38,276 nucleotides of DNA, taken from NCBI GenBank assembly GCA_903894755.1, contig CAITRH010000720.1:1-38276 (forward strand). The letters are read 5' to 3'. The notes under the pieces were generated by a model that saw nothing but the letters and a program-made list of their open reading frames with translations, did not search any database and was not told where the DNA came from. The stretch is from an uncultured delta proteobacterium (lineage in GTDB: Bacteria; Myxococcota_A; Polyangia; Polyangiales; Polyangiaceae). Below are positions 3,424 through 34,725 of this stretch, piece after piece. The number at the start of each line of letters is the position of its first letter. Positions within the stretch are counted from its first letter, which is position 1. The position numbers were made by a program, and so were the translations under genes.

Positions 3424-3664
3424 AGCTCGTTTTCGCCTTTCGGGGCGAGTCTAAACCAAACTTGGACTCACAAGCAGCAACTTTGGGTAGAGTCGACCGC
3501 CGCACCGAATGCCACGACGGGTCAAAATGCGGTAAGTAAGGCATGACCATGCACATTTCCCCTAGGCCAGGTGATCGCGAAGGCTCCCTTCTGGAGCGTA
3601 GCCGCGGCTTGGGCGCGGCGTGCCGCCGTCGCGCCTCGGCCTTCGTCAACCAAGGTGCAGTCCT

Positions 3665-14828: not shown

Positions 14829-14909
14829 CGTTGGGCGTGTTGGAAGAGATCAAGCCGCGGGCCCAGGGCGCTGCGGATCACGGATGACGAGGACTTGCAA
14901 GAGGAAACC

Positions 14910-17900: not shown

Positions 17901-20900
17901 GCCACACGGACTCGGGTGGTGGTGACTGGAGCGGCGTTTGGTCTTCCAGGAACGGAGAAGGTATTTGACGATCACAACCTTGCGCGTTTCCTAGCAGGGG
18001 AACAGCTTATCGACCTGGTCCCAATGAAGCTGCGCAGGGCGATGGTCGACAAGCACATCACGCGTCTCGTGAAGTCCGAGTCTGGCGATGCGAAGTTCGA
18101 ACCGATCAACAGTCCTGCCGAGGTGATCAGGCTTGCCGGCCGAGCGGGTACATTTGATCTCCAGAGCGAGTACAACATTGCGGCGGAGCGGATTCCGGCG
18201 CTCGACACTGTGACGAAGCTAGCGATTGCTGTGGGTCTCGACGCGTTGCGAGACGCGGGGATTCCGCTGGTGATGCGCTACAAGACAACGAGTAAGGGGA
18301 CGCAACTTCCCGATGGCTGGGCGCTTCCCGAGCCTTTGCGTGACGACACGGGGGTCATTTTTGCATCAGCGTTTCCAGGGTGCGACGCATTTGTGGAGCA
18401 GGTGACCGAGTACCAGGAGGATCGCGCTCGACGTGGGCGTCTTGAGGAGTTGGAGCGGGTGCGGGGACGGATTGCAGCGTCACCCGAGCTTGATCGGCGC
18501 ATTGACGAGCTGCGGGCGGAAGTTGCAAAGAAGGCATTTGCTTTCGACCGTCGCTTTCTGTTCCGGGTGCTCTCGATGGGGCACTCGCAATTTGCCGAGC
18601 TGATTCGAGCAAGGGGCCCGAATACGTCGGTCAACGCGGCTTGTGCCAGCACGACGCAGGCTGTCTCGCTAGCTGAGGACTGGATTCAGGCAGGGCGCTG
18701 CCGGCGGGTCATTGTCATCGCGGCTGACAACATCACGTCGGACAATCTGATGGAGTGGGCCGGTTCAGGGTTTTTGGCGACAGGAGCTGCGGCGACCGAT
18801 GAGATTGTGGAGGACGCTGCGACGCCGTTCGATCGGAGGCGTCATGGAATGATCATTGGGATGGGAGCGGCGTCACTGGTTGTGGAGAGTGCGGAGTCGG
18901 CACGCGAGCGAGGGCTAGTTCCGATCGCGGAGGTTCTGAGCTCGGTGACCGCCAACAGTGCGTTTCACGGGACGCGGCTGGACATTGAGCACATCGCGCA
19001 GGTGATGGAGAAGCTGGTGAGCCAGGCGGAGCAGCGTTGGGGCGTGTCACGAGGAGACATGTCAACACGAATGGTGTTTGTGTCGCACGAGACCTACACG
19101 CCGGCACGGGGAGGGAGTGCTGCAGCCGAGGTGCATGCACTTCGGAAAGTATTTGGTGCAAGTGCTGACCAAATAGTGGTGGCAAACACCAAGGGGTATA
19201 CGGGCCACGCCATGGGGGCGGGCATTGAGGATGTGGTCGCGGTCAAGAGTCTGGAGACAGGGCTCATTCCGCCCATTCCCAATTACAAAGAGGTCGATCC
19301 CGATCTTGGGGTACTGAATCTGTCCAAGGGGGGCGCCTATCCGATCGACTTCGCGCTGCGTCTTGGCGCCGGGTTTGGCTCGCAAATCAGCATGACCTTG
19401 TACCGTCGTGCGACTGCAGCGCCTCGTCCAACGCCAGACGATCTCGGGTTTGCAACACGAACTGCGGACCCGCAGGTTTTTGCGTCGTGGCTGTCTTCGA
19501 TGAGCGGGTACGCGTCTGCGTCCCTCGAGGTAGACCATCGAACGCTACGCATCAAGGACCAGGGGCCGTCCAGTCGGACGACGCCCGCGAAGCCTGCGGC
19601 TGCTGTTTCTGCTGCGCCGAAGGTTGTGGCTCTCCCTTCTCGAGCTGCAACGGTGGCAAAGCCACTAGCAGCAGCGGTGGCAAAGCCAGTAGCCGTCGAG
19701 GCGCCAAAGCCCGCACCGGTGGCGGCTCCGGCGGTGGACGCCATTGCGGAGCGGGTACTTGGGCTGGTTGCTGAGAAGACAGGGTATCCGCGCGACATGT
19801 TGGCGCTCGACCTGGATCTCGAGGCGGACCTTGGGGTGGACACGGTCAAGCAGGCCGAGGTCTTTGCAAGCATTCGCTCGACCTACGACATTCCGCGCGA
19901 TGACGCGATCAAACTGCGGGACTACCCGACGCTGAAGCACGTCATTGGGTTTGTGAAGGCAAGGCGTCCCGATCTCGTGGGGGTTGCACCTGCGGCAGCT
20001 CCCGTAGCTGCACCCGCGCCCGCTGCGGTCCCTGTAGCAGTTCCCGTAGTGGGTGGTGTGGACGCGATAGCGGAGCGTGTGCTTGGCCTAGTGGCCGAGA
20101 AGACAGGCTATCCGCGAGAAATGCTAGCCCTCGACTTAGACCTGGAAGCTGACCTGGGGGTGGACACGGTCAAGCAGGCCGAGGTCTTTGCAAGCATTCG
20201 GTCAACCTACGACATCCCTCGCGACGACGCGATCAAGCTTCGCGACTACCCGACGTTGCAACATGTCATTGGCTTCGTAAAGGCGAGGCGTCCCGACCTG
20301 GTCAGCGCTGCGGCTCCTGCTCCCGCACCTGTACTGGCTGCAGTTCCTGTGGTTTCTCCGGTGGCGCCGGCAGCGGCGGGGGATGCCGTGGCAGAACGCG
20401 TGCTGTCGCTGGTAGCTGAGAAGACTGGCTATCCGCGCGAGATGCTGGCGCTCGACCTGGATCTCGAGGCGGACCTTGGGGTGGACACGGTCAAACAGGC
20501 GGAGGTGTTCGCTACGATCCGGAGCGAATACGGAATCACGCGGGACGACACTATCAAGCTTCGCGATTATCCAACGCTAGGCCACGTCATTGGTTTCGTA
20601 AGAGCCAACCGTCCTGACCTCGCAGTGCAGGTTGTCGCACCAGCGCCCGTGGCGGTTCCTTCTGCTGCACCTGTGGTGGCTTCCGGTATCGATGCGGTGA
20701 CTGAGCGTGTGCTTACGCTCGTGTCGGAGAAGACTGGGTATCCGCGCGAGATGCTGGCCCTTGACCTGGACCTCGAAGCGGATCTTGGCGTGGATACTGT
20801 CAAGCAGGCAGAAGTGTTCGCGACAATCCGCAGCGAGTACGGCATTGCTCGCGACGACAGCATCAAGCTTCGGGACTACCCCACGTTGAACCATGTCATC

Positions 20901-23900
20901 GGGTTCGTGCGTGCGGGCCGTCCTGACCTTGCGGCTCCTGCTGCTGCACCGGTTGTTGCGCAGGTTGCTGTACCGTCGCCTGTTGCCGTGGCAGCTACGG
21001 CTCCTTCGGGGACCGACAGCGTTGCGGAGCGCGTACTGGCAGTGGTGGCGGACAAGACGGGTTATCCGCGCGAGATGCTGGCGCTCGACCTGGACCTCGA
21101 GGCCGACCTGGGAGTGGACACGGTCAAGCAGGCCGAGGTGTTTGCAACGATCCGGAGCGAGTACGGGATCGCCCGTGACGACAGTATCAAGCTTCGGGAT
21201 TACCCGACCTTGAACCATGTGATCGGGTTCGTGAAGTCGCGTCGTCCCGACCTTGGGGCGGCTCCTGCAGTTTCTGCTCCCGTTGTTGCACCGGCGGCAA
21301 GCGCGGGCGGGGCAGGGGAGGACGATGGGGTTGAAGAGCGCGTGCTGGCGCTCGTTGCGGAGAAGACTGGGTATCCGCGCGAGATGCTGGCGCTTGACTT
21401 GGACCTTGAGGCCGACCTCGGGGTCGACACAGTCAAACAAGCCGAAGTGTTCGCGACGATCCGCAATGAGTACGGGATCCCTCGCGAGGACAGCCTCAAA
21501 CTTCGCGACTATCCAACATTGAACCATGTCATTGCCTTTGCGCGTTCGCGACGTGGTGCGGGGGGGACTTCAGGTACCCCTGTAGTCATCGCACCGCAGG
21601 CTGCTGTGGCCCCGGGGGTCAAGCTGATGTCGTTCGACGCGATCGGGACATTCCCTCGGCGTGTTCCTGTTCCTGTCCTGCGGCCGGCTCTTGAATTGTG
21701 CAAGGCGACTGGGGTCAAGCTGGAAGCTGGCCGGCGCGTGGTGCTCATGATGGACCAAGCAGGGGTCGGTCATGCCCTTGCGTGGTCGCTTGGCGAACGG
21801 GGAGTCGAGGTGCTCAAGGTAGAAGACGCGCCGTCGCTCGCGGAGCTTACGGCTCGTATAGACACTTGGCTGGCTGCTGGGCCAATCCATGGTGTGTACT
21901 GGCTTCCCGCACTGGACCACGAAGGGGATATTGCGTCTTTGGATCTGGCTTCGTGGAAAGCTGCGACGCACAAGCGCGTGAAGTTGCTCTACGCAACGAT
22001 GCGAGCACTGTACAAGCAGATCGACGGTGCCGACACATTCCTTGTGTCAGCGACAAAGAACGGCGGACAGCACGGCTACGATCCGGCTGGCGCGTTGTCC
22101 CCAGTCGGTGGTGCAGTAGCGGGCTTTACCAAGGCGTTCAAACGTGAGAAGGCGTCGGCGCTTGTAAAGTGTGTCGACTTCGAGGCATCGGCAGTAGCCA
22201 GCGATGTCGCATCGGCGCTGCTGGATGAAGCCGTGCGTGACCCTGGCGCAGTGGAAATTGGTCGCAAGAGCGGGCTTCGTTGGGCCGTGGGACTGAGCGA
22301 GCAGTCGGCTACTGACGGGGCTCCTGGGATGGTGCTTTCTAAGGAGTCTGTGTTCCTGATCACGGGCGCTGCGGGGAGCATCGTGTCCGCCATTACGCAG
22401 GATCTTGCGGCGGCTTCAGGCGGTACCTTCTATCTGTTCGATTTAGTGCCAGCACCGGACGCGTCCAGTTCCGATCTGCAGCGTTTTTCAACGGACAAGG
22501 ACGGGCTGAAGCGCGAGCTCTTCGAGCGTATCAAGGCGCGCGGCGAGCGGGCGACTCCAGCGTTGGTTGAGCGGGAGCTGGCGGGCATCGAGCGCAGGGT
22601 TGCTGCACTCAAGGCCATCCAGGCGGTGGAGGCTGCAGGCGGAACGGCGCATTACGTGAGTGCCGATCTTCGCGACGAGGCAGCTATCTCCCGAGCGGTT
22701 GCCGACCTTCGTAGTCGTTCAGGCAAGGTCGACGTGCTGTTGCATGCAGGAGGGTTGGAGATCAGTCGGTTCCTTCCAGACAAGAAGGCGGAGGAATACG
22801 ACCTGGTCTTCGACGTCAAGAGCGACGGTTGGTTCAATCTGCTGCACGCCATTGGGGACATGCCGCTCGGTGCCGTTGTGACCTTTAGCTCGATCGCGGG
22901 ACGGTTTGGCAACGGCGGCCAGACGGACTACAGCGCTGCCAACGATCTGCTTTGCAAGAGCATGTCGTCGTTCCGCAACAGCCGTCCGTCGACCCGAGGC
23001 ATCTCCATTGACTGGACTGCGTGGGGCGGCATTGGCATGGCGGTGCGAGGGTCCATTCCGAAGATGATGGAAATGGCTGGCATCGAGATGCTGACTCCGG
23101 AGGCTGGCATTCCGGCCATTCGACGGGAGCTTACGGCGGGTGGGTTCCGCGGTGAGGTGGTTATTGCGGGCAAGCTGGGGCTCCTGATGAAGGAGTTCGA
23201 CGAAGCTGGGGGACTCGATGGGAGTGCAGTACAGCCGCTGCTGCATGGCCCGATGCAGGGACGTGTCCTCGGGATGGGGCTCTACTCGGGGCTGACAGTC
23301 GAGGTCGCACCGGAGCCAAAGAAGCAAGGGTTCCTCAATGACCATCGCATCGAGGGGACGCCGGTGTTGCCTGGGGTTATGGGAGTCGAGGCTTTTGCCG
23401 AAGCTGCCACGCTGCTTCTTCCTGGTTGGAGTGTTGCGGCTGTCGAAGAGGTGGACTACCTGGCGCCGTTCAAGTTCTACCGGGATGAGCCAAGGACAAT
23501 CACGGTACATGCCATGCTGGAGGCAAGTGGCGAGGGGGTTCTAGCGCGTTGCCGTCTGACTGGCAGTCGCAGTTTGCCTGGGCAGTCTGAGCCCCTGGTG
23601 ACGACGCACTTTACTGCAAATGTGCGGCTTGAACGCGGGGCACGCGCTACGGCATCGGCTGCGGTACCGAGTGCGGACAGTCGGGCCTTGGTGCACTCGG
23701 GAGAAATCTACCGCGTGTATTTCCACGGTCCGGCGTATCAGGTGCTTGAGCAGGCGTGGAGACACGAAGGAGGGGCTGCTGCGCTTATTGCAGATGGCTT
23801 GGCTCCCAATCATGACCCGTCCAATCTGCCCGTGGTCATGGCACCGCGTCTTATCGAGTCGTGTTTCCAGGTGGCGGGGATTTGGGAGATGGGCAGCACG

Positions 23901-24134
23901 GGCAAGATGGGGCTTCCGCTTCACATCGACCGTGTTACGACATTGCGGGATCCTGAGTCAGCAGGGGGACGGCGGCTTTTCGCAGTGGCTCGTCCCGCCG
24001 GGGGTGGGTTCGATGCGGAAGTTGTAGATGCCGACGGTGCGGTATATGTGCGGCTTTCTGGGTACAAGACCGTGGCGCTGCCGACAGCGGTTGATGACGA
24101 GCGGCTGCGACCGCTGCGTGATGCAATGCGCTGA
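14910..24134 (+). CDS. Pfa-like iterative lipid/polyketide megasynthase, KS-AT-KS-ACP6-KR-DH
   Basis: This single chain of 3074 residues looks like a fused PUFA-synthase-like enzyme. KS1 (about 8-470) has C217, H351 (EGHGTST) and H391 (SNIGHLKA). The AT (about 600-910) has GHSLG with S697 and HAFH at 799-802, the malonyl-type signature. A second ketosynthase (about 990-1500) keeps C1245, H1393 and H1433 and has a charged helical insert at about 1164-1215. Six carrier domains follow (about 1608-2216), joined by Ala/Pro/Val linkers. Each reads LGVDTVK, with Thr at 1645, 1753, 1860, 1963, 2071 and 2174 where Ser is normal. The KR (about 2235-2750) has S2661 and Y2674. The DH has H2812 in HxxxGxxxxP. 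No enoyl reductase, thioesterase or acyltransferase is present. The ATG at 14910 (GAGGA upstream) is preferred to TTG 14895. The neighbours supply a carboxylase and a phosphopantetheinyl transferase. Confidence 0.92.
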   Translation: MDDTSFRAIAVVGIGAIMPDAPTAPTFWENIKGSRYSISEVLPDRWDPALYYDADKKAPDKTYSKIGGWVRDYEWEPIKWKLAIPPRVQDAMDASQKWAIGCTRQALIDYGHPNRPLDFERTAVILGNAMGGERHYQTALRISYPEYARFLSDTEAFRALPESVRTTLLREFYERTAKGLPPITEDTMPGELGNCLAGRVANTFNFHGPNYICDAACASAMAAISSAMDGLLGGDFDAVVAGGIDRNMGAPSFVKFCKIGALSATGTRPYDEGSDGFVMGEGSAVFILKRLSDAEKAGDKIYAVIRGIGGASDGKGKGMTAPNPIGQRLAIQRAWKNAGIAPSEGMLMEGHGTSTAVGDAVELAAAAEVFGNAVTRPGSIALGSVKSNIGHLKAAAGAAGLFKVTMALHDKVLPPSLNYRRPNSNVDWSKVPFAVNTELRAWDKPPSGVRTATVSAFGFGGTNFHMVMEEYIPGRLRVGEGKRVFSAVPSTPGASGGSFKAPLRGAAVIGASDVKGLAVKLAELLKAAEAGKMPAIAAPAEADLGAAERIAIDWVDAADLAAKATKALKALAASNPGMWKALRAQGIFKGSGPAPKVAFLYTGQGSQYVNMLRELRATEPIVAKLFDDADRVMTPKLGKSLSSIIFVDGGNKAAVAQAEEELRQTAVTQPAVLAVDAALTELMAAYGILPDMVMGHSLGEYGALVAAGGIPFDDAVEAVSARGAEMTKVSVADNGKMAAVFAPIPEIERILAGVNGYVVIANINSHTQAVIGGSTTGVEKAGAALLQAGHNVVPLPVSHAFHTTIVAPASEPLRRTLAKLRLAPVRIPLVANVDGEFYPTGPDAVEGMLDILAKQVAAPVQFVKGLTKLYEAGVRVFVEVGPKKALQGFAEDVLGSKDDVLTLFTNHPKVGDIVSFNQALCGLYASGLGAPKATQAVVQAPAIVMAAVQPVAVPAVASPAAPPPALGQDRYLELGKLFAEFLDRGQRIYGGAGEAPAATRTRVVVTGAAFGLPGTEKVFDDHNLARFLAGEQLIDLVPMKLRRAMVDKHITRLVKSESGDAKFEPINSPAEVIRLAGRAGTFDLQSEYNIAAERIPALDTVTKLAIAVGLDALRDAGIPLVMRYKTTSKGTQLPDGWALPEPLRDDTGVIFASAFPGCDAFVEQVTEYQEDRARRGRLEELERVRGRIAASPELDRRIDELRAEVAKKAFAFDRRFLFRVLSMGHSQFAELIRARGPNTSVNAACASTTQAVSLAEDWIQAGRCRRVIVIAADNITSDNLMEWAGSGFLATGAAATDEIVEDAATPFDRRRHGMIIGMGAASLVVESAESARERGLVPIAEVLSSVTANSAFHGTRLDIEHIAQVMEKLVSQAEQRWGVSRGDMSTRMVFVSHETYTPARGGSAAAEVHALRKVFGASADQIVVANTKGYTGHAMGAGIEDVVAVKSLETGLIPPIPNYKEVDPDLGVLNLSKGGAYPIDFALRLGAGFGSQISMTLYRRATAAPRPTPDDLGFATRTADPQVFASWLSSMSGYASASLEVDHRTLRIKDQGPSSRTTPAKPAAAVSAAPKVVALPSRAATVAKPLAAAVAKPVAVEAPKPAPVAAPAVDAIAERVLGLVAEKTGYPRDMLALDLDLEADLGVDTVKQAEVFASIRSTYDIPRDDAIKLRDYPTLKHVIGFVKARRPDLVGVAPAAAPVAAPAPAAVPVAVPVVGGVDAIAERVLGLVAEKTGYPREMLALDLDLEADLGVDTVKQAEVFASIRSTYDIPRDDAIKLRDYPTLQHVIGFVKARRPDLVSAAAPAPAPVLAAVPVVSPVAPAAAGDAVAERVLSLVAEKTGYPREMLALDLDLEADLGVDTVKQAEVFATIRSEYGITRDDTIKLRDYPTLGHVIGFVRANRPDLAVQVVAPAPVAVPSAAPVVASGIDAVTERVLTLVSEKTGYPREMLALDLDLEADLGVDTVKQAEVFATIRSEYGIARDDSIKLRDYPTLNHVIGFVRAGRPDLAAPAAAPVVAQVAVPSPVAVAATAPSGTDSVAERVLAVVADKTGYPREMLALDLDLEADLGVDTVKQAEVFATIRSEYGIARDDSIKLRDYPTLNHVIGFVKSRRPDLGAAPAVSAPVVAPAASAGGAGEDDGVEERVLALVAEKTGYPREMLALDLDLEADLGVDTVKQAEVFATIRNEYGIPREDSLKLRDYPTLNHVIAFARSRRGAGGTSGTPVVIAPQAAVAPGVKLMSFDAIGTFPRRVPVPVLRPALELCKATGVKLEAGRRVVLMMDQAGVGHALAWSLGERGVEVLKVEDAPSLAELTARIDTWLAAGPIHGVYWLPALDHEGDIASLDLASWKAATHKRVKLLYATMRALYKQIDGADTFLVSATKNGGQHGYDPAGALSPVGGAVAGFTKAFKREKASALVKCVDFEASAVASDVASALLDEAVRDPGAVEIGRKSGLRWAVGLSEQSATDGAPGMVLSKESVFLITGAAGSIVSAITQDLAAASGGTFYLFDLVPAPDASSSDLQRFSTDKDGLKRELFERIKARGERATPALVERELAGIERRVAALKAIQAVEAAGGTAHYVSADLRDEAAISRAVADLRSRSGKVDVLLHAGGLEISRFLPDKKAEEYDLVFDVKSDGWFNLLHAIGDMPLGAVVTFSSIAGRFGNGGQTDYSAANDLLCKSMSSFRNSRPSTRGISIDWTAWGGIGMAVRGSIPKMMEMAGIEMLTPEAGIPAIRRELTAGGFRGEVVIAGKLGLLMKEFDEAGGLDGSAVQPLLHGPMQGRVLGMGLYSGLTVEVAPEPKKQGFLNDHRIEGTPVLPGVMGVEAFAEAATLLLPGWSVAAVEEVDYLAPFKFYRDEPRTITVHAMLEASGEGVLARCRLTGSRSLPGQSEPLVTTHFTANVRLERGARATASAAVPSADSRALVHSGEIYRVYFHGPAYQVLEQAWRHEGGAAALIADGLAPNHDPSNLPVVMAPRLIESCFQVAGIWEMGSTGKMGLPLHIDRVTTLRDPESAGGRRLFAVARPAGGGFDAEVVDADGAVYVRLSGYKTVALPTAVDDERLRPLRDAMR
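19734..21555 (+). repeat. Six tandem carrier-domain repeats inside the megasynthase
   Basis: Six copies of a roughly 310-325-base coding repeat encode carrier domains spaced 103-108 residues apart. The core between the AEKTGYPR and DYPTL segments is almost invariant at protein level, while synonymous positions differ. For example, the motif threonine is encoded by acg four times, act once and aca once. The linkers diverge in length and sequence but stay Ala/Pro/Val-rich. This points to old duplication under strong protein-level selection rather than a recent expansion. Confidence 0.9.
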
Positions 24135-24234: not shown

Positions 24235-27200
24235 ATGCGGCGCGATTTTAGGCGTGTGGCCATTGCAAATCGTGGCCAAGCGGCTCTCCGTTTGATCCAA
24301 GGCGTGCGTGAGTTCAACTCGGAGCGGGGGACTGCCATTCGGACCCTTGCGCTCTATACGGACCTGGACCGCGAGGCGCGGTTTGTTCGGGAGGCCGATG
24401 AGGCGGTGTATCTGGGGCCGTCCTCCTTTGTGGACGAGCGAGATGGGCGACGCAAAAGCGGCTACTTCGATTTCGATCGCATGGGCAGGGTCTTGGCGAA
24501 AGCCGAGGTGGATGCAGCATGGGTTGGCTGGGGCTATGTGGTTCCTCATGTGGAGTTTGCTGAGCTCTGCGCGACCATGGGGATCCTCTTCATTGGCCCG
24601 TCGCCAAGCGTGGTGCGGCTCTTCGATGACAAGATCGCGGTTAGAAAGCTAGCAGAGGAGCGCGGGATCGCTGTTTTGCCTTGGAGTGGTGGCGCGGTTG
24701 AGAGGTTGCACGACGCACAGAAACAAGCCGAGGCCATCGGATATCCTCTTGTGATCAAGGCAGCCAATGGGGGAGGGGGCAGGGGTCTGCGGGTAGTACA
24801 GAACGCGTCGGAGCTTGCAACGGCATTTGAGCGTACGAGGGTGGATGCCAGGACGATCTTTGGGAATCCATCGGTGCTGATGGAACGTCACCTGGCGTGC
24901 GCCTGTCAGGTTGATGTACAGGTAGCTGGGGATTCCAGTGGCACGGTGTGGGCGCTCGGGGTTAGGGACGCTTCCGTGCAGCGTCGGCAGAGGCGGACAG
25001 TGGACGAGTCCCCGTCGCCGCTGCTTTCAGTCGAGGAAGACCGATTGCTGCGGCAAGTGGCTGTGTCTCTGCTCTCGGGGCAGGGGTACGAGGGGGTGGG
25101 GACTGTCGAATTCTTGATGGATCGCAAGACTCGGGCGTTCACGTTGCTCGAGGTCAATCCGCGCCTGCTTATCGAGCACGGGGTGATAGAGGCGACAACG
25201 GGCTTCGACATTGTGAAGTTGCAGCTTCTTCTTGCAAGGGGCGGTTGTCTCGAGGGGGACGCGCCCCTGGCCAGTGGGCATGCCATTGAGGTAAGGCTTC
25301 GCGCCGAGGACCCGCACCAAGCGTTTGCGCCATCCCCGGGCGCTGTAGAGGCGTTTCGAGCGCCGACCGGTCCAGGCATTCGAGTTGACGTTGCGGTTGG
25401 CGAAGGGGAGTTGGTTCACACCGACTTCGATACGTTGGTGGCAAAGGTTATTGCGTCGGGCCGTTCCAGAGGAGAGGCCTTGGCGCGTCTCGAGGGGGCT
25501 CTTCGCGACACAACACTGGTTTTGGCCGGGGGCGCGAGCAACAAGTCGTTTCTGTTGTCCCTCGTGCAACGTGCGGAGCTTCGTTCCGGTGAGGCCCATG
25601 TCGATTGGGTGGACGGGCTCGAAGCTGCGGATCAAGTGGTACCCGACGCCCATGCGGACATCGCACTTGCTGCGGCTGCCATTGAGCTTCACGACGAGCA
25701 GCTTGCCGCAGAAGAACGTGACTTTTTCGTGGCAGCTTCCAGGGGAAGGCCCCGGGTGCGAAGTGAGCTTGGACGTAGTGTAGAGGTGCACAACCATGGG
25801 CATACCTACCGTCTTCTTGTTGCCCAACGTGGGGCGGATCGGTACCGCATCGAAGCGGAGGGGCGGATCCTAGATACCTCTGTGCTGCGTCATGGACGGT
25901 TTGAGCGTCGGCTGCAGACGCCTCATCATGGCTACCGCGCCGTGGTGGTTCATCAGGGGTCGAGCCACTTAGTTGAGGTGGATGGGATCGCGCACCGGTT
26001 TTTCTTTGGAGTGGGGGCGTCCGTGTTGGCGCCATCACCAGCCGTGGTGCAGAGCATTGCGGTCAAGGAAGGGGATTCGGTCGAACGTGGGCAGAGGCTG
26101 ATGGTGCTCGAGGCCATGAAGATGGCCATTGAAATTGTTGCGCCTTTTGCTGGGCGGATTCGCGAAGTCAGTGTGGTCAGCAATGTCCCCGTGCCGTCAG
26201 GCGCTACATTGGTGATCATCGATGGCAAGACGCATCATCCCGATGAGCACAGTGCAGCGCGCATTACTTTCGAGTCCTGGGCCAGTAGCGGAGATGCGGC
26301 TCCTGGCGAGACTGCAAGGGAGAGGTGGCGTCGCACGGTCACCGAGCTTCGATCGCTGATGTTGGGCTTCGAGGTGAGCATGGCAGATGCGCGTCGTCTT
26401 GTCGGCGAGGTGGCGAAGCTGCAGAAGGAACTGCCTGCGGACGATGACGAAGTGCGGCGCTCTGAAGACGAGCTCCTGGGGCTCTTTGTAGATATCTGCT
26501 CGCTGTTCCGACGTCGTCCGGGCGCGGAGGATCCAGAGGAGGAGGAGGACTTCAGTGCCGAGGAGTTTCTTCTGACGTACTTGCGTACCTGCGACCCAAG
26601 AGCCGCTGGACTTCCCGGTTCTTTTCTCGAGGAGCTCCGTCGCGCGGTGGCCCACTATGGAGTTTCAGGGTTCGAGCGGACTGCGAAACTCGAGGATGCG
26701 CTGTTTTGGATCTACAAGTCGCATCAACAGATCGAGGACCAGGTGCCTGCCATCGTGCAGATCCTCGAGCACCGGCTGGCGCAGGTGGATCGACTGTTGC
26801 CCCATGTGACTGAAGACTTCTCTGCTCTGCTGGATCGCCTTGCAAGAGCAACTGGGAGTCGCTACCCGCTGGTCCATGACCTGGCCCGTGAGGTGGGATA
26901 CCGCTATTTCGATCGACCCATGTTCGAGCGGGCGAGGGCAAAGATTTACGAAGAGGCCCATGGGCGTCTCGACAAGCTTGCTCGGGATCCGGACGCTGCG
27001 GACCGCAGAGAGCATATGCAATGGCTACTCGAGTGCCCCCAGCCGCTCGTGGACCTCTTGGCCGATCGGTTTGAATCGGCCCGTCTCGCAAAGCGCCAGT
27101 TGATGCTCGAAGTGCTCTCGGCGCGTCACTACCGCATTCGAGACATTCGCCACTTCTTGCCCATGACCCTTGGCCATCGTGCGGTCGTTGCGGCGGAGTA

Positions 27201-29820
27201 CACCCTAGATGGAAGGCGCGTTCAGCTCCTTTCCACCTACACCACCTATGCCGATGTGGGACACACGGGACAGCTTCTCTGCCAGCGAATTGCCGAGCTT
27301 TCCGACGACGTTGACATTGTGGTCGACCTGTTTGTTTGGCGGGTCGAGGCTCCAGTGTCAGCCGACGAGCTCCAGTCCGCCCTTGCAAAGACCTTTGGAA
27401 ACGTGGGGTTTCCCCGTCCGCTTCGCCGGATTTGCACCATGGTTTCCGGTCCTGGTGGCGGGCATACACAGCACTTCACGTTCCGTCCTACCCCGGATGG
27501 CGGGTATGCAGAGGAGCGTGCTTATCGCGGCCTCCATCCGATGATGGGCAAGCGGCTGCAGCTTTGGCAGCTTGGAAACTTCAATATCGAGCGCCTTCCC
27601 TCCGCCGAGGATGTCTACCTATTTCGAGCGGTGGCAAAGAGCAATCCTAAGGACGAGCGCCTTGTGGCCTTCGGAGAGGTCCGCGACTTGACCGCAGTGA
27701 GGGACAAGACCGGCAAGCTCGTGCAACTTCCCCACTTCGAGCGTCTGTTCCAAGAGGCCATTGCGAGCATGCGCATGTTTCAGTCGCACAGGCCACCGGG
27801 CAAGCGGTTGTATTGGAACCGCATCGACTTGTACGTCTGGCCAAGCTTGTCGCTGCGACGTGACGAGATCCACGAGGTAGCGCGCAAGCTTGCCCCTGCA
27901 ACCGAGGGGCTAGGTCTCGACAAGGCGGTTCTGCGGGTGCGTGTCGTGGACCCAGCCAACGGCCTCGAGCCCAAAGACACCGAGATCCAGATTGCAAAGC
28001 GCAGTGGTCTCGGACTCAGTTTGACCTACCACACGCCGTCAGGGGAGCTCATCGAGCCGCTGTCCGAATACGACCAAAAGGTCGTGCGTATGCGCCAGCG
28101 GGGACTGACCTATCCGTACGAAATCGTGCGGATGCTCACCCCGTCCCGAAGCGGAACGGACGCTGAGTACCCACCGGGTGAGTTTGTCGAATACGATCTG
28201 GCAAGTCCGAAGGACATTGCGCTGGTCCCAGTGCAACGACCGTACGGAAACAATACCGCCAACATCGTGGTCGGCGTGCTCCGCAATTACACGGAAAAGG
28301 TGCCCGAGGGCATCGCACGCGTCGTGCTCGCAGGCGATCCTAGCAAGAGCCTTGGGTCATTGGCCGAACCCGAGTGCCGTCGTATTCTGGGTGCCCTCGC
28401 TCTCGCTGCAACCATGCAGATTCCGATCGAGTGGTTCGCACTGTCGTCGGGAGCCCGCATCTCCATGCAGAGCGGAACCGAGAACATGGACTGGATTGCA
28501 GATGTCCTCCGTGGCCTCATCGAGTTCACCCAGAAGGGCGGGGAGATCAACATTGTGGTGATGGGCATCAACGTTGGCGGACAGCCTTATTGGAACGCTG
28601 AGGCGACCATGTTGATGCACACCCGCGGCATTCTGATCATGATGCCAGGTGGTGCTATGGTGCTCACTGGCAAACGCGCTCTCGACTACTCGGGGGGCGT
28701 GTCGGCCGAAGACGACGTTGGTATCGGTGGCTACGAGCGCATCATGGGGGTCAACGGTCAGGCGCAGTACCTTGCTCGTGACGCTGCCGATGCTTGCCAT
28801 ATCCTACTGCGCCACTACGAGCATACCTACGTGGTACCCGGTGAGCGGTTTCCCAGGCGCGCGCCAACGCAGGACCGGCCGGAACGAGACGTGGGGGAAC
28901 ATCCGCACGGCGAGGGATTTGCCAAAGTTGGGGACATCTTCAGCGACGTGACGAACCCAGGTCGCAAGAAGCCTTTCAATATCCGCAAGGTGATGGGGGC
29001 TACCATCGATCAGGACCATGAGCCCCTAGAACGCTGGGTCGACATGCGGGACGCCGAAAACGCAGTGGTTTGGGATGCACACTTAGGAGGATATCCCGTC
29101 ATGGTCCTGGGCATCGAGTCCCAGCCCGTGGAGCGCAAGGGGGTTGCGCCCGCCGATGGTCCAGAGCATTGGACCGGGGGAACGTTGTTCCCGAAGGCTT
29201 CGAAGAAGGTAGCAAGGGCTATCAATACGGCTAGCGGGAACCGTCCCATTGTCATTCTTGCAAACCTATCTGGGTTCGATGGATCTCCGGAGTCGCTGCG
29301 GGAGTGCCAGCTCGAGTTCGGTGCAGAAATAGGGCGAGCCGTGGTGAACTTCCGCGGGCCTATTGTGTTTTGCGTGATCTCACGGTTCCATGGTGGGGCC
29401 TACGTGGTGTTTTCAAGGACCCTCAACGACAACATCGAGGTTGCGGCACTGGAGGGGACCTTCGCATCGGTGATCGGAGGGGCTCCTGCGGCGGGGGTTG
29501 TGTTTGCCGGTGAGGTCGAGGCTAGGGCGCGTGGGGATGCTCGAATCAAGGGCCTCGAGGCGGAGATTGCCCAGGCACCGGACCTGGAAAAACGTCGCAT
29601 TCGCGCTAAGCTCGAGACCACATTGAAGGTGGTGCGGGCCGAGAAGGTTGGCGAACTGGCTGACGAGTTCGACAAAGAGCACAGTGTCCATAGGGCACTG
29701 CGCGTTGGATCGCTCCATCGAATCATTCCTCCCTCCACACTACGTCCCTACTTGATCGATGCGGTCGAACGAGGGATGGCGCGCGAGCTCGAACGGGTTC
29801 GTACAGCAGCGCAGACATGA
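24235..29820 (+). CDS. Single-chain acyl-CoA (probably acetyl-CoA) carboxylase, BC-BCCP-central-CT
   Basis: One 1861-residue chain carries all parts of a biotin-dependent carboxylase. The biotin carboxylase domain is at about 1-450 (ANRGQAALR, KAANGGGGRG, GTVEFL, EVNPR, GHAIEVRLRAEDP). The biotin carrier is at about 590-665, with K629 in EAMKM. A long central linker (about 670-1240) precedes the carboxyltransferase domain (about 1300-1840; ALSSGARI, MGINVGGQPYW, GGAMVLTGKRALDYSGG). This order is that of eukaryotic cytosolic ACC, whereas most bacteria use separate subunits. The expected reaction is ATP-dependent carboxylation of acetyl-CoA to malonyl-CoA; propionyl-CoA cannot be excluded. In the bicarbonate site, residues matching E. 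coli BC H236, K238 and Q294 are Gln252, Arg254 and Leu312, although Arg310 is kept. GAGGAAGGA at 24217-24225 is the ribosome-binding site. The stop overlaps the next gene by four bases. Confidence 0.9.
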   Translation: MRRDFRRVAIANRGQAALRLIQGVREFNSERGTAIRTLALYTDLDREARFVREADEAVYLGPSSFVDERDGRRKSGYFDFDRMGRVLAKAEVDAAWVGWGYVVPHVEFAELCATMGILFIGPSPSVVRLFDDKIAVRKLAEERGIAVLPWSGGAVERLHDAQKQAEAIGYPLVIKAANGGGGRGLRVVQNASELATAFERTRVDARTIFGNPSVLMERHLACACQVDVQVAGDSSGTVWALGVRDASVQRRQRRTVDESPSPLLSVEEDRLLRQVAVSLLSGQGYEGVGTVEFLMDRKTRAFTLLEVNPRLLIEHGVIEATTGFDIVKLQLLLARGGCLEGDAPLASGHAIEVRLRAEDPHQAFAPSPGAVEAFRAPTGPGIRVDVAVGEGELVHTDFDTLVAKVIASGRSRGEALARLEGALRDTTLVLAGGASNKSFLLSLVQRAELRSGEAHVDWVDGLEAADQVVPDAHADIALAAAAIELHDEQLAAEERDFFVAASRGRPRVRSELGRSVEVHNHGHTYRLLVAQRGADRYRIEAEGRILDTSVLRHGRFERRLQTPHHGYRAVVVHQGSSHLVEVDGIAHRFFFGVGASVLAPSPAVVQSIAVKEGDSVERGQRLMVLEAMKMAIEIVAPFAGRIREVSVVSNVPVPSGATLVIIDGKTHHPDEHSAARITFESWASSGDAAPGETARERWRRTVTELRSLMLGFEVSMADARRLVGEVAKLQKELPADDDEVRRSEDELLGLFVDICSLFRRRPGAEDPEEEEDFSAEEFLLTYLRTCDPRAAGLPGSFLEELRRAVAHYGVSGFERTAKLEDALFWIYKSHQQIEDQVPAIVQILEHRLAQVDRLLPHVTEDFSALLDRLARATGSRYPLVHDLAREVGYRYFDRPMFERARAKIYEEAHGRLDKLARDPDAADRREHMQWLLECPQPLVDLLADRFESARLAKRQLMLEVLSARHYRIRDIRHFLPMTLGHRAVVAAEYTLDGRRVQLLSTYTTYADVGHTGQLLCQRIAELSDDVDIVVDLFVWRVEAPVSADELQSALAKTFGNVGFPRPLRRICTMVSGPGGGHTQHFTFRPTPDGGYAEERAYRGLHPMMGKRLQLWQLGNFNIERLPSAEDVYLFRAVAKSNPKDERLVAFGEVRDLTAVRDKTGKLVQLPHFERLFQEAIASMRMFQSHRPPGKRLYWNRIDLYVWPSLSLRRDEIHEVARKLAPATEGLGLDKAVLRVRVVDPANGLEPKDTEIQIAKRSGLGLSLTYHTPSGELIEPLSEYDQKVVRMRQRGLTYPYEIVRMLTPSRSGTDAEYPPGEFVEYDLASPKDIALVPVQRPYGNNTANIVVGVLRNYTEKVPEGIARVVLAGDPSKSLGSLAEPECRRILGALALAATMQIPIEWFALSSGARISMQSGTENMDWIADVLRGLIEFTQKGGEINIVVMGINVGGQPYWNAEATMLMHTRGILIMMPGGAMVLTGKRALDYSGGVSAEDDVGIGGYERIMGVNGQAQYLARDAADACHILLRHYEHTYVVPGERFPRRAPTQDRPERDVGEHPHGEGFAKVGDIFSDVTNPGRKKPFNIRKVMGATIDQDHEPLERWVDMRDAENAVVWDAHLGGYPVMVLGIESQPVERKGVAPADGPEHWTGGTLFPKASKKVARAINTASGNRPIVILANLSGFDGSPESLRECQLEFGAEIGRAVVNFRGPIVFCVISRFHGGAYVVFSRTLNDNIEVAALEGTFASVIGGAPAAGVVFAGEVEARARGDARIKGLEAEIAQAPDLEKRRIRAKLETTLKVVRAEKVGELADEFDKEHSVHRALRVGSLHRIIPPSTLRPYLIDAVERGMARELERVRTAAQT

Positions 29821-30479
29821 CGGTGCTCGTCGCCTTGCAGGAACTGGGGGATGTTCCTGCGGGCGACGACTGGTTGACGCCGCGTGAGAAGCAGGATCTT
29901 GCGCGGCTTCGCCTGCCGAAACGCCGTGCCGATTGGAGGCTTGGGCGCTGGACAGGGAAACGAGCGCTGGAGTCCTTTGGTGGCAAGGCTTCTTGGGAGG
30001 TGCGCGCTGCGGCGGATGGTGCGCCGGAGGTGTTTGTGGAGGGCAAGCCAGCGCCGCTGGTGATGTCGCTGTCGCACACGTCGGGTTGTGCGGTGTGCGC
30101 AGTGGCGTCAGCGGGGGTTCGGCTCGGAGTCGACTTGGAGGTTCTCGAGCCGCGCTCGCAGGAGTTTATCGCGGACTTCTTTAGTGGTGAGGAGCAGGAC
30201 TGCTTGGGGGAGACATGGGATGCGACAACGTTGGTGAACTTGTTTTGGAGTGCGAAGGAGAGTGCATTGAAGGCCCTGCGCACCGGGCTTCGGGAGGACA
30301 CACGTGGGGTTCGGGTTGTTCAATGGGAGGACAAGCGGCTGGCCGTGTACGTGATGGAGCGAGGGGAGACGCTGCGCGGTGTGTGGCGGACTTTCCAGGG
30401 GCTCGTGCTGACTTTGTTGGTCGCGCCTTCGGAGGGAGTCGACGTGCGCTGGGTGGGGTGCTCGCGGTCGTTGCGGTAG
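29817..30479 (+). CDS. Sfp-type 4'-phosphopantetheinyl transferase
   Basis: This 220-residue enzyme would transfer phosphopantetheine from coenzyme A to carrier domains. It has the Sfp-family signatures MSLSHTSG, GVDLEVLE (metal-binding Asp/Glu) and WSAKESALKAL (Trp/Lys/Glu). Its size is normal for the family. Its ATG overlaps the carboxylase stop (ATGA, 29817-29820), so it is almost certainly translated with the carboxylase and belongs to the megasynthase pathway. The natural targets are the six carrier domains of the upstream megasynthase, which carry Thr at the attachment position. That makes its substrate specificity the key question. A small GC hairpin lies between its stop and the following kinase. 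Confidence 0.9.
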   Translation: MTVLVALQELGDVPAGDDWLTPREKQDLARLRLPKRRADWRLGRWTGKRALESFGGKASWEVRAAADGAPEVFVEGKPAPLVMSLSHTSGCAVCAVASAGVRLGVDLEVLEPRSQEFIADFFSGEEQDCLGETWDATTLVNLFWSAKESALKALRTGLREDTRGVRVVQWEDKRLAVYVMERGETLRGVWRTFQGLVLTLLVAPSEGVDVRWVGCSRSLR

Positions 30480-30507: not shown

Positions 30508-31986
30508 ATGCTGACCCGTGGCTCGCGCATCTCCGTGTACGAGATCTGGGGACGCCTTGGCGAAGGCGGCATGAGCGAGGTTTGGCTTGCCAAGCACACG
30601 GTCCTTTCCGTGCCCGTCGTCATCAAGACCTTGCGTCGCGCGGTCGCCGAGGCTGTGGGAGTCTCGGGGGCACAACGGATGTTCAACGAGGCGCGGCTGA
30701 TGGCTCGCGTCACCGATCCTCGGGTAGTTCGGGCTCTCGACGCGGGAGTGATGGAGGATGTCCCTTACCTCGTGCAGGAGTACGTCGACGGCATCGACCT
30801 CGCGGAGCTCAATCGCGAACGTCGTCGCGCGCTCGGTGTGGGGCTCCCTCTTTGGCTGGTCTGTCAGGTCATGATGGAGACCTGTCAGGGCCTTCATGCG
30901 GCGCATCAGGCGGGGGTGATCCATCGCGACGTAAAGCCCTCGAACCTCTTCGTGGCGCCCGAAACGGGGGTGCGTCTTGGCGACTTCGGCATTGCGGTAG
31001 CGCGCGCCGATGGGCCTTGCGACGAGGTAAGTGGGACGTTGAAGTTCATGGCGCCCGAGCAGCTTCGTGGCGGACCGGTGGACCGCACGACCGATGTCTA
31101 CGGAGCGGGGGCGACGGCGTACGATCTTCGTTATGGGCGCGCGCCGTTTGTCGAGACGCAGCACATTTTCGATCCCGATCGGGATCCTGTTTTTCCGCCC
31201 CCAAAGAACCCTGGAGAAGCCTATTTCCAGCATCTTCTACGGGGCATGATGGCGACCGATCGACGGCTTCGTCCTCAGGATCTGGCGGAGCCTGGCAAGC
31301 ACTTTGCGACACTTGCGCAAGCGCTTCGTCCCGTGTCTCGAGACCAGCTTGCGGTGATCGGCAAGGCGTCGTTTCGACTACGCGACGTCGCGGTTATCTT
31401 TTGCGTGGGCGACCTGGCGCTTCAGGACGTGGACCTGATCGTGATGTCGGCGAACTACGAGATGCGGATGCGCAGTGGGTGTGGCGAGTCGCTTCGTGTG
31501 GCGGGGGGCGATGGCATCGAAGAAGAGGCGATGCGAGGAGGAGAGCGTGCGCTTGGCACCTGTGTGGTGACGGGAGGGGGCAAGCTCAAGGCGCGTCGTG
31601 TGGTGCATGCGGTGAGTGCATGGAGCGAGACGTCGTGTGTCGGGCGGTCGATGTTTCGGGCGTTGCTGCTTGCGGACCAACTGGGGGCGCGTTCGGTGGC
31701 GGTACCGGCGCTCGGGACCGGAGCGGCGCGTGTGAGCATGGAGACGTGTGCGAACGCGATGATGACGGCGTTGAGGCTTCATGTGTCGCTGGGGGGGACG
31801 AGGCTACGGAGTTTGGTGGTGGTGCTTTCGAGCGAGGAGGCGCTGAAGACGTATGCGGACGTAGCCGAGGAGGCGCTTCGCGAGCGGGACGAGGCGCCGA
31901 GGGTGTCCGACTTGGGACTTCCCGCCGACGAATTCGAGTTTAGCGAAGACGGCTCGACGCAGCTCGACACGGCGGCGCCCAGCTAG
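30508..31986 (+). CDS. Ser/Thr protein kinase fused to a macro domain
   Basis: Residues about 8-275 form a Hanks-type kinase: glycine loop LGEGGMSEVW, catalytic K40 (VVIK), HRDVKPSN at 139, DFG at 159 and the MAPEQL segment. All key residues are present, so it should be active. Residues about 285-480 resemble a macro domain: DVDLIVMSAN with N316, a Gly-rich stretch ESLRVAGGDGIEEEA, GTCVVTGGGKLKARRVVHAV, and SVAVPALGTGAARVSM, which matches the macro phosphate loop (usually a STG or GTG segment before a helix). Macro domains bind ADP-ribose and related nucleotides and some remove ADP-ribose. No membrane segment is visible. It follows the phosphopantetheinyl transferase by 28 bases, so it might share that transcript, though a functional link is unproven. 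Confidence 0.83.
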   Translation: MLTRGSRISVYEIWGRLGEGGMSEVWLAKHTVLSVPVVIKTLRRAVAEAVGVSGAQRMFNEARLMARVTDPRVVRALDAGVMEDVPYLVQEYVDGIDLAELNRERRRALGVGLPLWLVCQVMMETCQGLHAAHQAGVIHRDVKPSNLFVAPETGVRLGDFGIAVARADGPCDEVSGTLKFMAPEQLRGGPVDRTTDVYGAGATAYDLRYGRAPFVETQHIFDPDRDPVFPPPKNPGEAYFQHLLRGMMATDRRLRPQDLAEPGKHFATLAQALRPVSRDQLAVIGKASFRLRDVAVIFCVGDLALQDVDLIVMSANYEMRMRSGCGESLRVAGGDGIEEEAMRGGERALGTCVVTGGGKLKARRVVHAVSAWSETSCVGRSMFRALLLADQLGARSVAVPALGTGAARVSMETCANAMMTALRLHVSLGGTRLRSLVVVLSSEEALKTYADVAEEALRERDEAPRVSDLGLPADEFEFSEDGSTQLDTAAPS

Positions 31987-32077: not shown

Positions 32078-33361
32078 ATGCCGACAGACACGTTGACGGT
32101 TACGGACAACCGAACGGGCAAGACGTACGAAATCAAAATTAGCGATGGAACCATTAGCGCCACCGACCTGAGGCAAATCCGAAGTTCTCCGGAGGACTTC
32201 GGGCTCATGTCCTACGACCCAGCTTTCCTCAACACGGCTTCGTGCCGAAGTGCCATCACCTTCATCGATGGAGACAAGGGGATCCTTCGGTACCGAGGAT
32301 TTCCAATCGAAGAGCTGGCCGAGCACTCGAGTTTCCTCGAGATTGCCTATCTCCTGTGCGAGGGGGAGCTTCCTACGCGTTCGCAACTCGAGGTGTGGGA
32401 GCGCGACATCTCGGGGCATACCTACGTACACACGAGCATCTCCAAATTTCTGGACGGGTTTCGCTACAACGCGCACCCCATGGGGATGCTTCTCGGCGCG
32501 GTCAGCGCGCTGTCGACGTTCTATCCCGATGCGGCCCACGTGCTCGATCGCAAGCAGCGTTATGTCCAGCGCATTCGGCTCCTAGCCAAGATGCCCACCA
32601 TCGCGGCGTTCGCGTTCCGCCACTCGCGAGGGCTCCCGTACGAGTACCCGCGCAACGACCTCGGCTACGTGGCGAACTTCGCCAACATGACCTTCAACAT
32701 TGGAGGTCGCTTCGAACCCAATCGCGTGCTCATTCGGGCTCTCGAGGTCCTTCTCATTCTTCACGCCGACCACGAGCAAAACTGCTCCACAGCCGCCATG
32801 CGCGCTGTCGGCTCCTCCCAGGTCGACCCGTTCTCCGCCATCTCCGCCGCCATTGCCGCCCTTTATGGCCCACTCCACGGCGGCGCCAACGAGGCCGTGC
32901 TTCACATGCTCGAAGAGATCGGTGACATCAAAAATGTCCCCTCCTTCGTCGAAAAGCTGAAGAAGGGGCATGGAAAGCTCATGGGATTTGGCCATCGCGT
33001 CTACAAATCCTACGACCCGCGCGCTCGCCTCATCAAGCGCGTGGCCGACGAAGTCTTCGAACAGACCGGGCTCAATCCCAAGCTCGACATCGCTCTCGAA
33101 CTCGAACGCATCGCGCTCCAAGACGAGTACTTCATCTCGCGCAAACTCTATCCCAACGTCGACTTCTACACCGGACTGATCTACCAGGCCATGGGATATC
33201 CCACGGAGTTTTTCACCGTGCTGTTTGCTCTCGGGCGAACTCCTGGATGGCTTGCGCAGTGGGAAGAGATGCTGCTCGACCCCGAAACGAAGATCTCTCG
33301 TCCTCGTCAGGTCTACATCGGCCACCCAACCCGTCCCTTCGTTCCGATTCACCGCCGCTAG
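32078..33361 (+). CDS. gltA: Citrate synthase
   Basis: Citrate synthase condenses acetyl-CoA and oxaloacetate to citrate at the entry of the TCA cycle. The 427-residue length and the N-terminal beta-rich extension (KTYEIKISDG) are typical of Gram-negative type II, often hexameric and NADH-regulated enzymes. The catalytic residues are visible: His in GPLHGGANEAV, His in GFGHRVYK and Asp in VDFYTG. The substrate-binding Arg-containing segments are also present. It has a good ribosome-binding site (AAGGAG at 32066) and a strong leader hairpin. It is flanked by two Ser/Thr kinase genes on the same strand, but with separate 91- and 101-base gaps, so it may have its own promoter. Confidence 0.96.
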   Translation: MPTDTLTVTDNRTGKTYEIKISDGTISATDLRQIRSSPEDFGLMSYDPAFLNTASCRSAITFIDGDKGILRYRGFPIEELAEHSSFLEIAYLLCEGELPTRSQLEVWERDISGHTYVHTSISKFLDGFRYNAHPMGMLLGAVSALSTFYPDAAHVLDRKQRYVQRIRLLAKMPTIAAFAFRHSRGLPYEYPRNDLGYVANFANMTFNIGGRFEPNRVLIRALEVLLILHADHEQNCSTAAMRAVGSSQVDPFSAISAAIAALYGPLHGGANEAVLHMLEEIGDIKNVPSFVEKLKKGHGKLMGFGHRVYKSYDPRARLIKRVADEVFEQTGLNPKLDIALELERIALQDEYFISRKLYPNVDFYTGLIYQAMGYPTEFFTVLFALGRTPGWLAQWEEMLLDPETKISRPRQVYIGHPTRPFVPIHRR

Positions 33362-33462: not shown

Positions 33463-34725
33463 ATGGAAGCTGAACGCAACGCGATCGACCCGCTGATCGG
33501 AAGGACCCTCGGGGGCAAGTTCCGTCTCGACGCTCTCGTGGGTCGAGGCGCGATGGGGGCGGTGTACCGAGCAAGTCAGATCGCTCTCAAAAAAACCGTG
33601 GCGATCAAAGTGATGCACGGGGACCGTCCCGCCGGCAGCACCTTTGCCGCTCGCTTCAAACGCGAGGCCAAAGCCGCCGCTCGCATGGACCATCCCAACT
33701 CGATCCGCATCATCGACGTGGGCGACGACGACGGGCTCCTTTACATTGCGATGGAGTTTCTCGAAGGGCGAAACCTCCTCGAGGTGCTTCGCGCCGAGTT
33801 TCCGCTCACCAAGGACCGCATCATTCACGTCCTCTCGCAGACCTTGGCGGCTCTTGCCGTCGGCCACGAGCTCGGCGTGGTCCATCGCGACATGAAACCC
33901 GAAAACATCATGTTGGTGGCGACCAAGGACGACGAGGGGAACGCCACGGAAATCGTCAAGGTGTGCGACTTTGGCGTGGCCAAGCTTCTCGAACCGGCCG
34001 ATCCCGTGGATCCGGCGCTACGAGGGACCCAGACGCATACGGGGAACTTGACGGCGCACGGGATGCTGATCGGGACTCCCGAGTACATGTCGCCCGAGCA
34101 GGCGCGAGGGGAACCGGCCGATCCGAGGAGCGATTTGTATTCGTTGGGAGTGATCCTGTTTCAGCTCTTGACCGGCAGGCTCCCCTTCGTCGCGACCAGC
34201 AAGATCAGGCTGGTCATCAAGCATGTCGAGGAGCCTCCGCCGCTTCCTACCGAGTTTGACTCGAAGATCGACCTTCGGCTCGAGGCGATCTGCATGAAGG
34301 CGTTGGCGAAGCGTCCGAGCGACCGGTTCGCGTCGGCGCGCGAAATGAGAGCGGCGCTTCGCGAGGTCCTCGACGATCGCCCCGAGAGTCTGCGGTTGCT
34401 CGCTGCGGCACGTCTCGAGTCCGCACGTCCGCAGCCCGCGGCGGCTCCACGCGAATCGAACAGTGGTGCCGCCGCGATGTCGCCTAGCGTGGGACAAACG
34501 GCGGTGGCCGAGCCGCTGCAGGTCACAGAGCCCGTGCCCACGCACAATCCGGTGGAGATGACGCAAGCCTTACGAGAGGTCCGTGAGCGCCTTAGTGGCC
34601 GTCCTCTGATCGCCGAGGGACCGGGGCTCGCGCGGGTCGTGCCCCTGTGGGGGGTAGTTGTCTTGGTGTTGGGGGTGGCTGTACTGACCGCCCTGATTGT
34701 GCTGTTCATGCTTCGAAAACCATGA
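33463..34725 (+). CDS. Membrane-anchored Ser/Thr protein kinase
   Basis: This 420-residue Hanks-type kinase has a canonical domain (about 15-280): VGRGAMGAVYRA, K49 (VAIK), HRDMKPEN at 141, DFG at 169, GTPEYMSPEQARG and the SDLYSLGVILFQLLTG segment. A Pro/Ala-rich, probably disordered linker (about 315-385) leads to one transmembrane helix at the extreme C-terminus (about 388-415), followed by only RKP. The kinase is thus tethered to the inner face of the membrane with no external sensor domain. It would have to receive its signal from the linker, partner proteins or membrane state. The gene is 16 bases before a multi-pass membrane protein, so they probably form an operon, and the membrane protein's tail could be a partner. 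Confidence 0.92.
   Translation: MEAERNAIDPLIGRTLGGKFRLDALVGRGAMGAVYRASQIALKKTVAIKVMHGDRPAGSTFAARFKREAKAAARMDHPNSIRIIDVGDDDGLLYIAMEFLEGRNLLEVLRAEFPLTKDRIIHVLSQTLAALAVGHELGVVHRDMKPENIMLVATKDDEGNATEIVKVCDFGVAKLLEPADPVDPALRGTQTHTGNLTAHGMLIGTPEYMSPEQARGEPADPRSDLYSLGVILFQLLTGRLPFVATSKIRLVIKHVEEPPPLPTEFDSKIDLRLEAICMKALAKRPSDRFASAREMRAALREVLDDRPESLRLLAAARLESARPQPAAAPRESNSGAAAMSPSVGQTAVAEPLQVTEPVPTHNPVEMTQALREVRERLSGRPLIAEGPGLARVVPLWGVVVLVLGVAVLTALIVLFMLRKP

Follow-up and report, generated by a model that had tools for sequence, protein, structure and literature searches.

A Hanks-type Ser/Thr kinase with a C-terminal macro domain in myxobacteria

Results

The kinase–macro gene and its surroundings

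The window, that is, the whole stretch of 38,276 nucleotides analysed here, carries at positions 30508–31986 a gene in which a Ser/Thr kinase domain is followed by a macro domain. Immediately upstream lies a lipid synthase locus. Its 3079-amino-acid synthase (14895–24134), for which the first in-frame start is TTG, contains two ketosynthases, an acyltransferase, six acyl-carrier domains, a ketoreductase and a dehydratase. The 1861-amino-acid single-chain, biotin-dependent carboxylase of the same locus (24235–29820) comprises biotin carboxylase, biotin carrier, acetyl-CoA carboxylase (ACC) central region and carboxyltransferase, an architecture resembling that of eukaryotic acetyl-CoA carboxylase. 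A 4'-phosphopantetheinyl transferase gene (29817–30479) ends 28 bases before the kinase–macro gene. On the other side, a citrate synthase gene (32078–33361) lies just upstream of a second Ser/Thr kinase (33463–34725), which has a C-terminal hydrophobic segment. The window also encodes a PAS-GGDEF diguanylate cyclase with a C-terminal hemerythrin domain (3620–5743; NCBIfam matches) and a protein matching the 'choice-of-anchor Z' PGGG repeat domain (5802–7256; NCBIfam NF058597). The features of the kinase–macro gene are as follows.

30508..31986, + strand: kinase–macro fusion gene, 492 amino acids, ATG start
30538..31275, + strand: Hanks-type Ser/Thr kinase domain, residues 11–256 (Pfam PF00069, E 4.5e-37; invariant residues), with K40, E61, H139-R140-D141, K143, N146, D159-F160-G161 and E184
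30982..31059, + strand: activation segment from DFG to APE, residues 159–184 (ortholog alignment)
31363..31881, + strand: MacroH2A-like macro domain, residues 286–458 (Pfam PF01661, predicted model, Foldseek, VIA-align)
31411..31413, + strand: D302, predicted adenine-binding Asp (invariant in the alignment)
31444..31497, + strand: loop 1, residues 313–330, MSANYEMRMRSGCGESLR (alignment, entropy)
31699..31740, + strand: loop 2, residues 398–411, AVPALGTGAARVSM, predicted pyrophosphate loop (ALGTG invariant)
31882..31983, + strand: probably disordered tail, residues 459–492 (pLDDT about 30; entropy)

The earlier note had read kinase motifs and macro-like strands in this one open frame, the latter including DVDLIVMSAN (residues 307–316) and PALGTGAARVSM (residues 400–411), and the profile scores of both halves bear this out. 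The Pfam Pkinase match (residues 11–256) reaches 128 bits against a curated cut-off of 31.7 bits, and the Pfam Macro match (residues 313–418, E 2.5e-14) reaches 53.7 bits against a cut-off of 22 bits. In addition, the two halves occur together in 20 other loci, at 39–61% identity. With both halves far over their cut-offs and kept jointly in these loci, a chance match is excluded; the fusion joins a complete Hanks-type kinase and a true macro fold in a single protein.

The kinase half

The N-terminal half is assigned to the Hanks-type Ser/Thr kinases by its Pkinase profile match and its catalytic residues. Among 21 aligned orthologs there is no variation at K40, at E61, in the H139-R140-D141 motif with K143 and N146, or in D159-F160-G161, in agreement with the earlier view of an active-looking kinase. 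Among more distant homologs, HRD is replaced by HCD and HQD in L077 and L084, and DFG by DLG in L083; the catalytic Asp is retained in all three.

The best sequence match of this half in the PDB is PknB (E 1.5e-32). PknB carries a TxT in its activation loop before the GT motif; in the DFG-to-APE segment of the aligned orthologs there is, by contrast, no conserved Ser or Thr upstream of the corresponding GT motif (residues 176–177). Since a conserved phosphorylatable residue is missing from this part of the loop, another switch, for instance the macro domain, is plausible, and the activation loop would leave room for macro-domain control of the kinase.

Two narrower assignments of the protein were considered and rejected. 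The NCBIfam equivalog for PASTA-type PknB/Stk1 kinases gives 174 bits against a cut-off of 450, with a match confined to residues 11–215. Matches to defence systems in PADLOC (PD-T4-6 and mad6) rest on the kinase domain and are silent on the macro half.

The macro half and its predicted binding pocket

An AlphaFold2 model of the macro half alone, built from a 7-sequence alignment, has a pLDDT of 86.3. Its top Foldseek match is macroH2A1.1 (E 3.3e-13), and VIA-align superimposes it on the macroH2A1.1 domain with a Z score of about 25 and 1.8 Å across about 172 residues. A profile comparison with solved structures puts PARP14 macro 1/2, TTHA0132 and PARP14 macro 3 nearest. The macro fold that had been expected for residues 280–492 is thus predicted for about residues 286–458, and the remainder (459–492) is a low-confidence tail. 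With a score over the Pfam cut-off and a predicted macro fold, the domain belongs to the Pfam Macro family (PF01661). The model of the full-length protein has a mean pLDDT of 69, too weak for reading contacts between kinase and macro domain.

Conservation is similar in macro domain and kinase (mean entropy 1.22 and 1.14 bits, respectively), and the two loops of the macro domain fall below the domain mean, at 0.94 bits for loop 1 and 0.82 bits for loop 2. D302, which we take from established knowledge of the fold to be the adenine-contacting Asp of macro domains, is invariant among the 21 aligned orthologs, as are G324 and the ALGTG of the predicted pyrophosphate loop. Two further invariant residues, R380 and R384, are specific to this family. 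Loop 1 is altered: MRSG replaces the GGGG stretch of YmdB, and N316, the counterpart of the Asn through which MacroD-type domains contact the distal ribose, is Asn in most orthologs and His, Arg or Thr in some, a variation within the family that makes an unusual ligand possible. In an alignment with E. coli YmdB (GGGVDGAI), G326 occupies the position of the catalytic Asp of MacroD-type hydrolases, and this position is Gly, Ala or Ser in 21 of 21 aligned orthologs. Membership in the MacroD-type ADP-ribosyl hydrolases was rejected on the absence of the catalytic Asp of GGGVDG.

Members of the MacroH2A-like family, among them PARP14 and macroH2A1.1, bind ADP-ribose metabolites and ADP-ribosylated proteins without catalysis (PMC11204291). 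The nearest fold of the kinase-fused domain lies in this class and the MacroD Asp is absent, which places the domain among the MacroH2A-like ones, with binding itself predicted. We read the whole protein as a soluble Ser/Thr kinase of the Hanks type with a MacroH2A-like macro domain on its C-terminal side.

Two other readings of the pocket were weighed. The domain could be an ADP-ribosyl hydrolase or an O-acetyl-ADP-ribose deacetylase with an activity coupled to the kinase or under its control, as a macro fold with a conserved adenine Asp and pyrophosphate loop might suggest. Moreover, the Asp is not an absolute requirement in some macro domains: in OiMacroD, Asp D40 and Asn N30 are tied to the distal ribose and to turnover, and the D40A variant keeps part of the activity (kcat 0.11 versus 0.48 per second; PMC5413906). 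Against hydrolysis, however, stand the Gly, Ala or Ser at the catalytic position throughout the aligned orthologs, the replaced GGGG stretch, the variable N316 and a nearest structural relative, macroH2A1.1, that is non-catalytic; we regard this reading as unlikely. The lack of the hydrolase Asp throughout the alignment makes a binder or sensor likelier, and a reader or sensor rather than a hydrolase is the role favoured by the pocket residues. Alternatively, the domain may have lost binding of ADP-ribose species and serve as a protein-interaction module or as a reader of another nucleotide. The atypical loop 1 and the variable N316 would fit such a loss, but neither D302 nor ALGTG varies, conservation in the two loops exceeds that of the remaining domain, and PARP14 macro 3 and TTHA0132 likewise lack the Asp in the profile alignment; the Asp-less PARP14 macro 3 was even crystallised with ADP-ribose. 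Loss of binding seems to us slighter still in probability than hydrolysis. In sum, the conserved pocket seems suited to binding and not to hydrolysis, in keeping with gating or targeting by ADP-ribose species.

The C-terminal tail

The tail is variable (mean entropy 2.35 bits), with low entropy only at D468, G470, L471 and T484. These positions form two motifs, D468-x-G470-L471 (DxGL) and T484 in TxLD; with few exceptions, the proteins of the main clade have the latter or a similar pattern (Thr, any residue, hydrophobic residue). A phosphorylated Thr in pTxxD is a recognised FHA-binding pattern. From this likeness one may reasonably guess that the kinase phosphorylates itself in the tail and so docks an FHA partner, with T484 as the candidate site.

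Distribution of the fusion

Within the 59 related genomes, the window genome included, 16 encode a kinase–macro protein. A search of 377 Myxococcota genomes with a profile of the macro half (A4) gave 27 best-scoring fetched loci (L058–L084), and in all of them a single reading frame covers both macro domain and kinase, which makes 27 of the 377 sampled genomes; they fall mostly in the order of the window genome, with a few in other families of Myxococcota. A contig scan across all species, which detects close relatives only and so leaves occurrence beyond Myxococcota possible, returned 11 loci, of which six are strong, full-length kinase–macro matches (L031–L036), all labelled myxobacterial; the weaker matches, some of them in Planctomycetes, cover the kinase half only. 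The search for the same fusion elsewhere, which the earlier note had proposed, thus yields a family: judged by these comparisons, the fusion is conserved and orthologous across many myxobacteria. Both parts are of known kinds; as far as we have seen, their combination is undescribed, and we found no description of a kinase–macro fusion in the open-access literature searched.

Adjacency to the lipid synthase locus

The short distance to the transferase gene had been taken to hint at a link with the lipid locus. On the strongest form of this reading, the kinase would belong to the polyunsaturated-fatty-acid-type synthase locus and regulate it. In this genome, co-transcription of transferase and kinase is plausible, given the 28-bp gap, the shared strand and the space between the two genes, in which no promoter- or terminator-like site was seen. 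Comparison across genomes speaks against the link. None of the ortholog loci examined has synthase genes beside the kinase–macro gene, and none of ten related synthase/carboxylase loci continues into such a gene (two of these ten stretches stop at contig ends). Of the 59 relatives, 15 have the single-chain carboxylase that belongs to the lipid locus; 3 have both this enzyme and the kinase–macro protein, against a chance expectation of about 4. In both of the other co-occurrence genomes the two genes lie on different contigs. A role in the synthase locus is hence highly improbable, and the adjacency is, by all these comparisons, accidental.

Adjacency to glycine cleavage genes

Ten kinase–macro orthologs, the nearest relative among them, adjoin genes of the glycine cleavage system. 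The order is gcvT-gcvH-kinase in L033, L034, L042 and L089, gcvT-gcvH-PDZ protein-kinase in L031 and L032, gcvT-gcvH-gcvP-like-kinase in L043 and gcvP-kinase in L044. L088 has gcvP, then a second, different kinase and then the kinase–macro gene, all on a single strand (2267–4692); in L045, gcvT-gcvH adjoin the kinase–macro gene and gcvP lies on the opposite strand. The gcv genes are mostly on the same strand as the kinase–macro gene, and in several loci the gaps measure about 10–40 bp.

The window protein is sister to that of L042 (support 97/91), and the clade in which the two lie includes all gcv-linked orthologs; gcvTH of the window genome are on a separate contig from the kinase–macro gene. 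Judged by this placement, the gene has most likely moved away from the gcv genes in the lineage leading to the window copy. We note that the gcv-linked loci also share a wider block (SAM synthetase, a methyltransferase, EamA and a MutS-like protein), so the functional link with gcv is suggestive only. In other clades the kinase–macro gene adjoins pnp or methylmalonyl-CoA mutase; as neighbours differ between clades, targets cannot be read with confidence from gene context.

A kinase specific to glycine cleavage, in which the macro domain would recognise ADP-ribosylated GcvH or the NAD state and the kinase would adjust the system, is a reading for which these loci offer some ground, with gcvT-gcvH, gcvP or both closely upstream in ten loci and the window copy sister to a gcv-linked ortholog. 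There is also a precedent, the SirTM/Zn-macro operon, in which a lipoylated GcvH-like protein is ADP-ribosylated and binds a macro domain (PMC11490716). Yet plain synteny may suffice, since the wider block is shared too; the window genome keeps gcvTH on another contig, other clades have other neighbours, and the Zn-macro class of the precedent differs from the kinase-fused macro domain. We hold such a dedicated role to be rather doubtful.

Proposed function

The genome encodes two sirtuins, each of which has the catalytic His motif and lies on another contig, and two ADP-ribosylglycohydrolase-family proteins, which means that sources of ADP-ribose species exist; no Pfam Macro match besides the kinase–macro protein was found in it. 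From anatomy and conservation we infer ligand binding, gating or targeting, tail phosphorylation and substrates as follows. The MacroH2A-like domain would bind ADP-ribose species without cutting them, and binding would switch the kinase on or off or bring it to its substrate. The ligands are likely to arise in soluble form when NAD is broken down, as ADP-ribose or as O-acetyl-ADP-ribose made by the cell's own sirtuins; an ADP-ribosylated protein follows closely in likelihood. The kinase would probably phosphorylate T484 in the TxLD of its own tail, docking an FHA-type partner. The ancestral gene of the subfamily probably lay by glycine cleavage genes, which makes central one-carbon or NAD(H)-linked metabolism a better guess for the target than the lipid synthase.

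That a non-cutting, ADP-ribose-binding macro domain gates or aims the kinase is the reading we think probable. More tentatively, the kinase may be gated directly by ADP-ribose or O-acetyl-ADP-ribose. Sirtuin activity or the breakdown of NAD would then be converted into Ser/Thr phosphorylation, and the target would be central metabolism, in the ancestor glycine cleavage. Myxobacteria have very many Ser/Thr kinases, and the inputs are known for only a minority of them. In this conserved kinase family the fused domain is of a class for which the possible ligands are few and can be tested; should the protein respond to ADP-ribose species, it would bring NAD/ADP-ribose signalling together with protein phosphorylation in one bacterial polypeptide.

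Comparison with known systems

Hanks-type kinases of the PknB/StkP type are alike in kinase fold and in all catalytic motifs. They bear PASTA or other sensors, whereas the protein described here has a macro domain instead, and it differs from PknB in the activation loop, where no conserved Thr takes the place of the TxT.

The macro domains of macroH2A1.1 and PARP14 (macro 2/3) are alike in fold (Z about 21–25), likewise lack the MacroD Asp, and bind without hydrolysis, as is predicted for the kinase-fused domain; here, by contrast, the domain is part of a bacterial kinase fusion, with about 20% identity and an altered loop 1. TTHA0132, a stand-alone macro protein, ranks second among solved structures by profile (E 1.2e-26) and has the highest identity (28–29%) among the structural matches listed. 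It has GxGV without the Asp, as in the kinase–macro protein, but TTHA0132-like proteins are single domains without a kinase.

In SirTM/Zn-macro/GcvH-L operons a macro domain is encoded beside a GcvH gene, as in some of the kinase–macro genomes. The macro protein of those operons is a zinc-dependent hydrolase and has SirTM as its partner, whereas the macro domain here is fused to a kinase and its neighbours are ordinary gcvT, gcvH and gcvP; we do not claim membership of the family in that class. Nor do we claim membership in Thoeris, where the TM-macro protein ThsA has membrane helices in place of a kinase. ThsA is, however, a precedent for a bacterial macro domain that switches an effector (PMC11204291), and in this one respect the arrangement proposed here would be similar, with the macro domain as the ligand switch of the effector attached to it.
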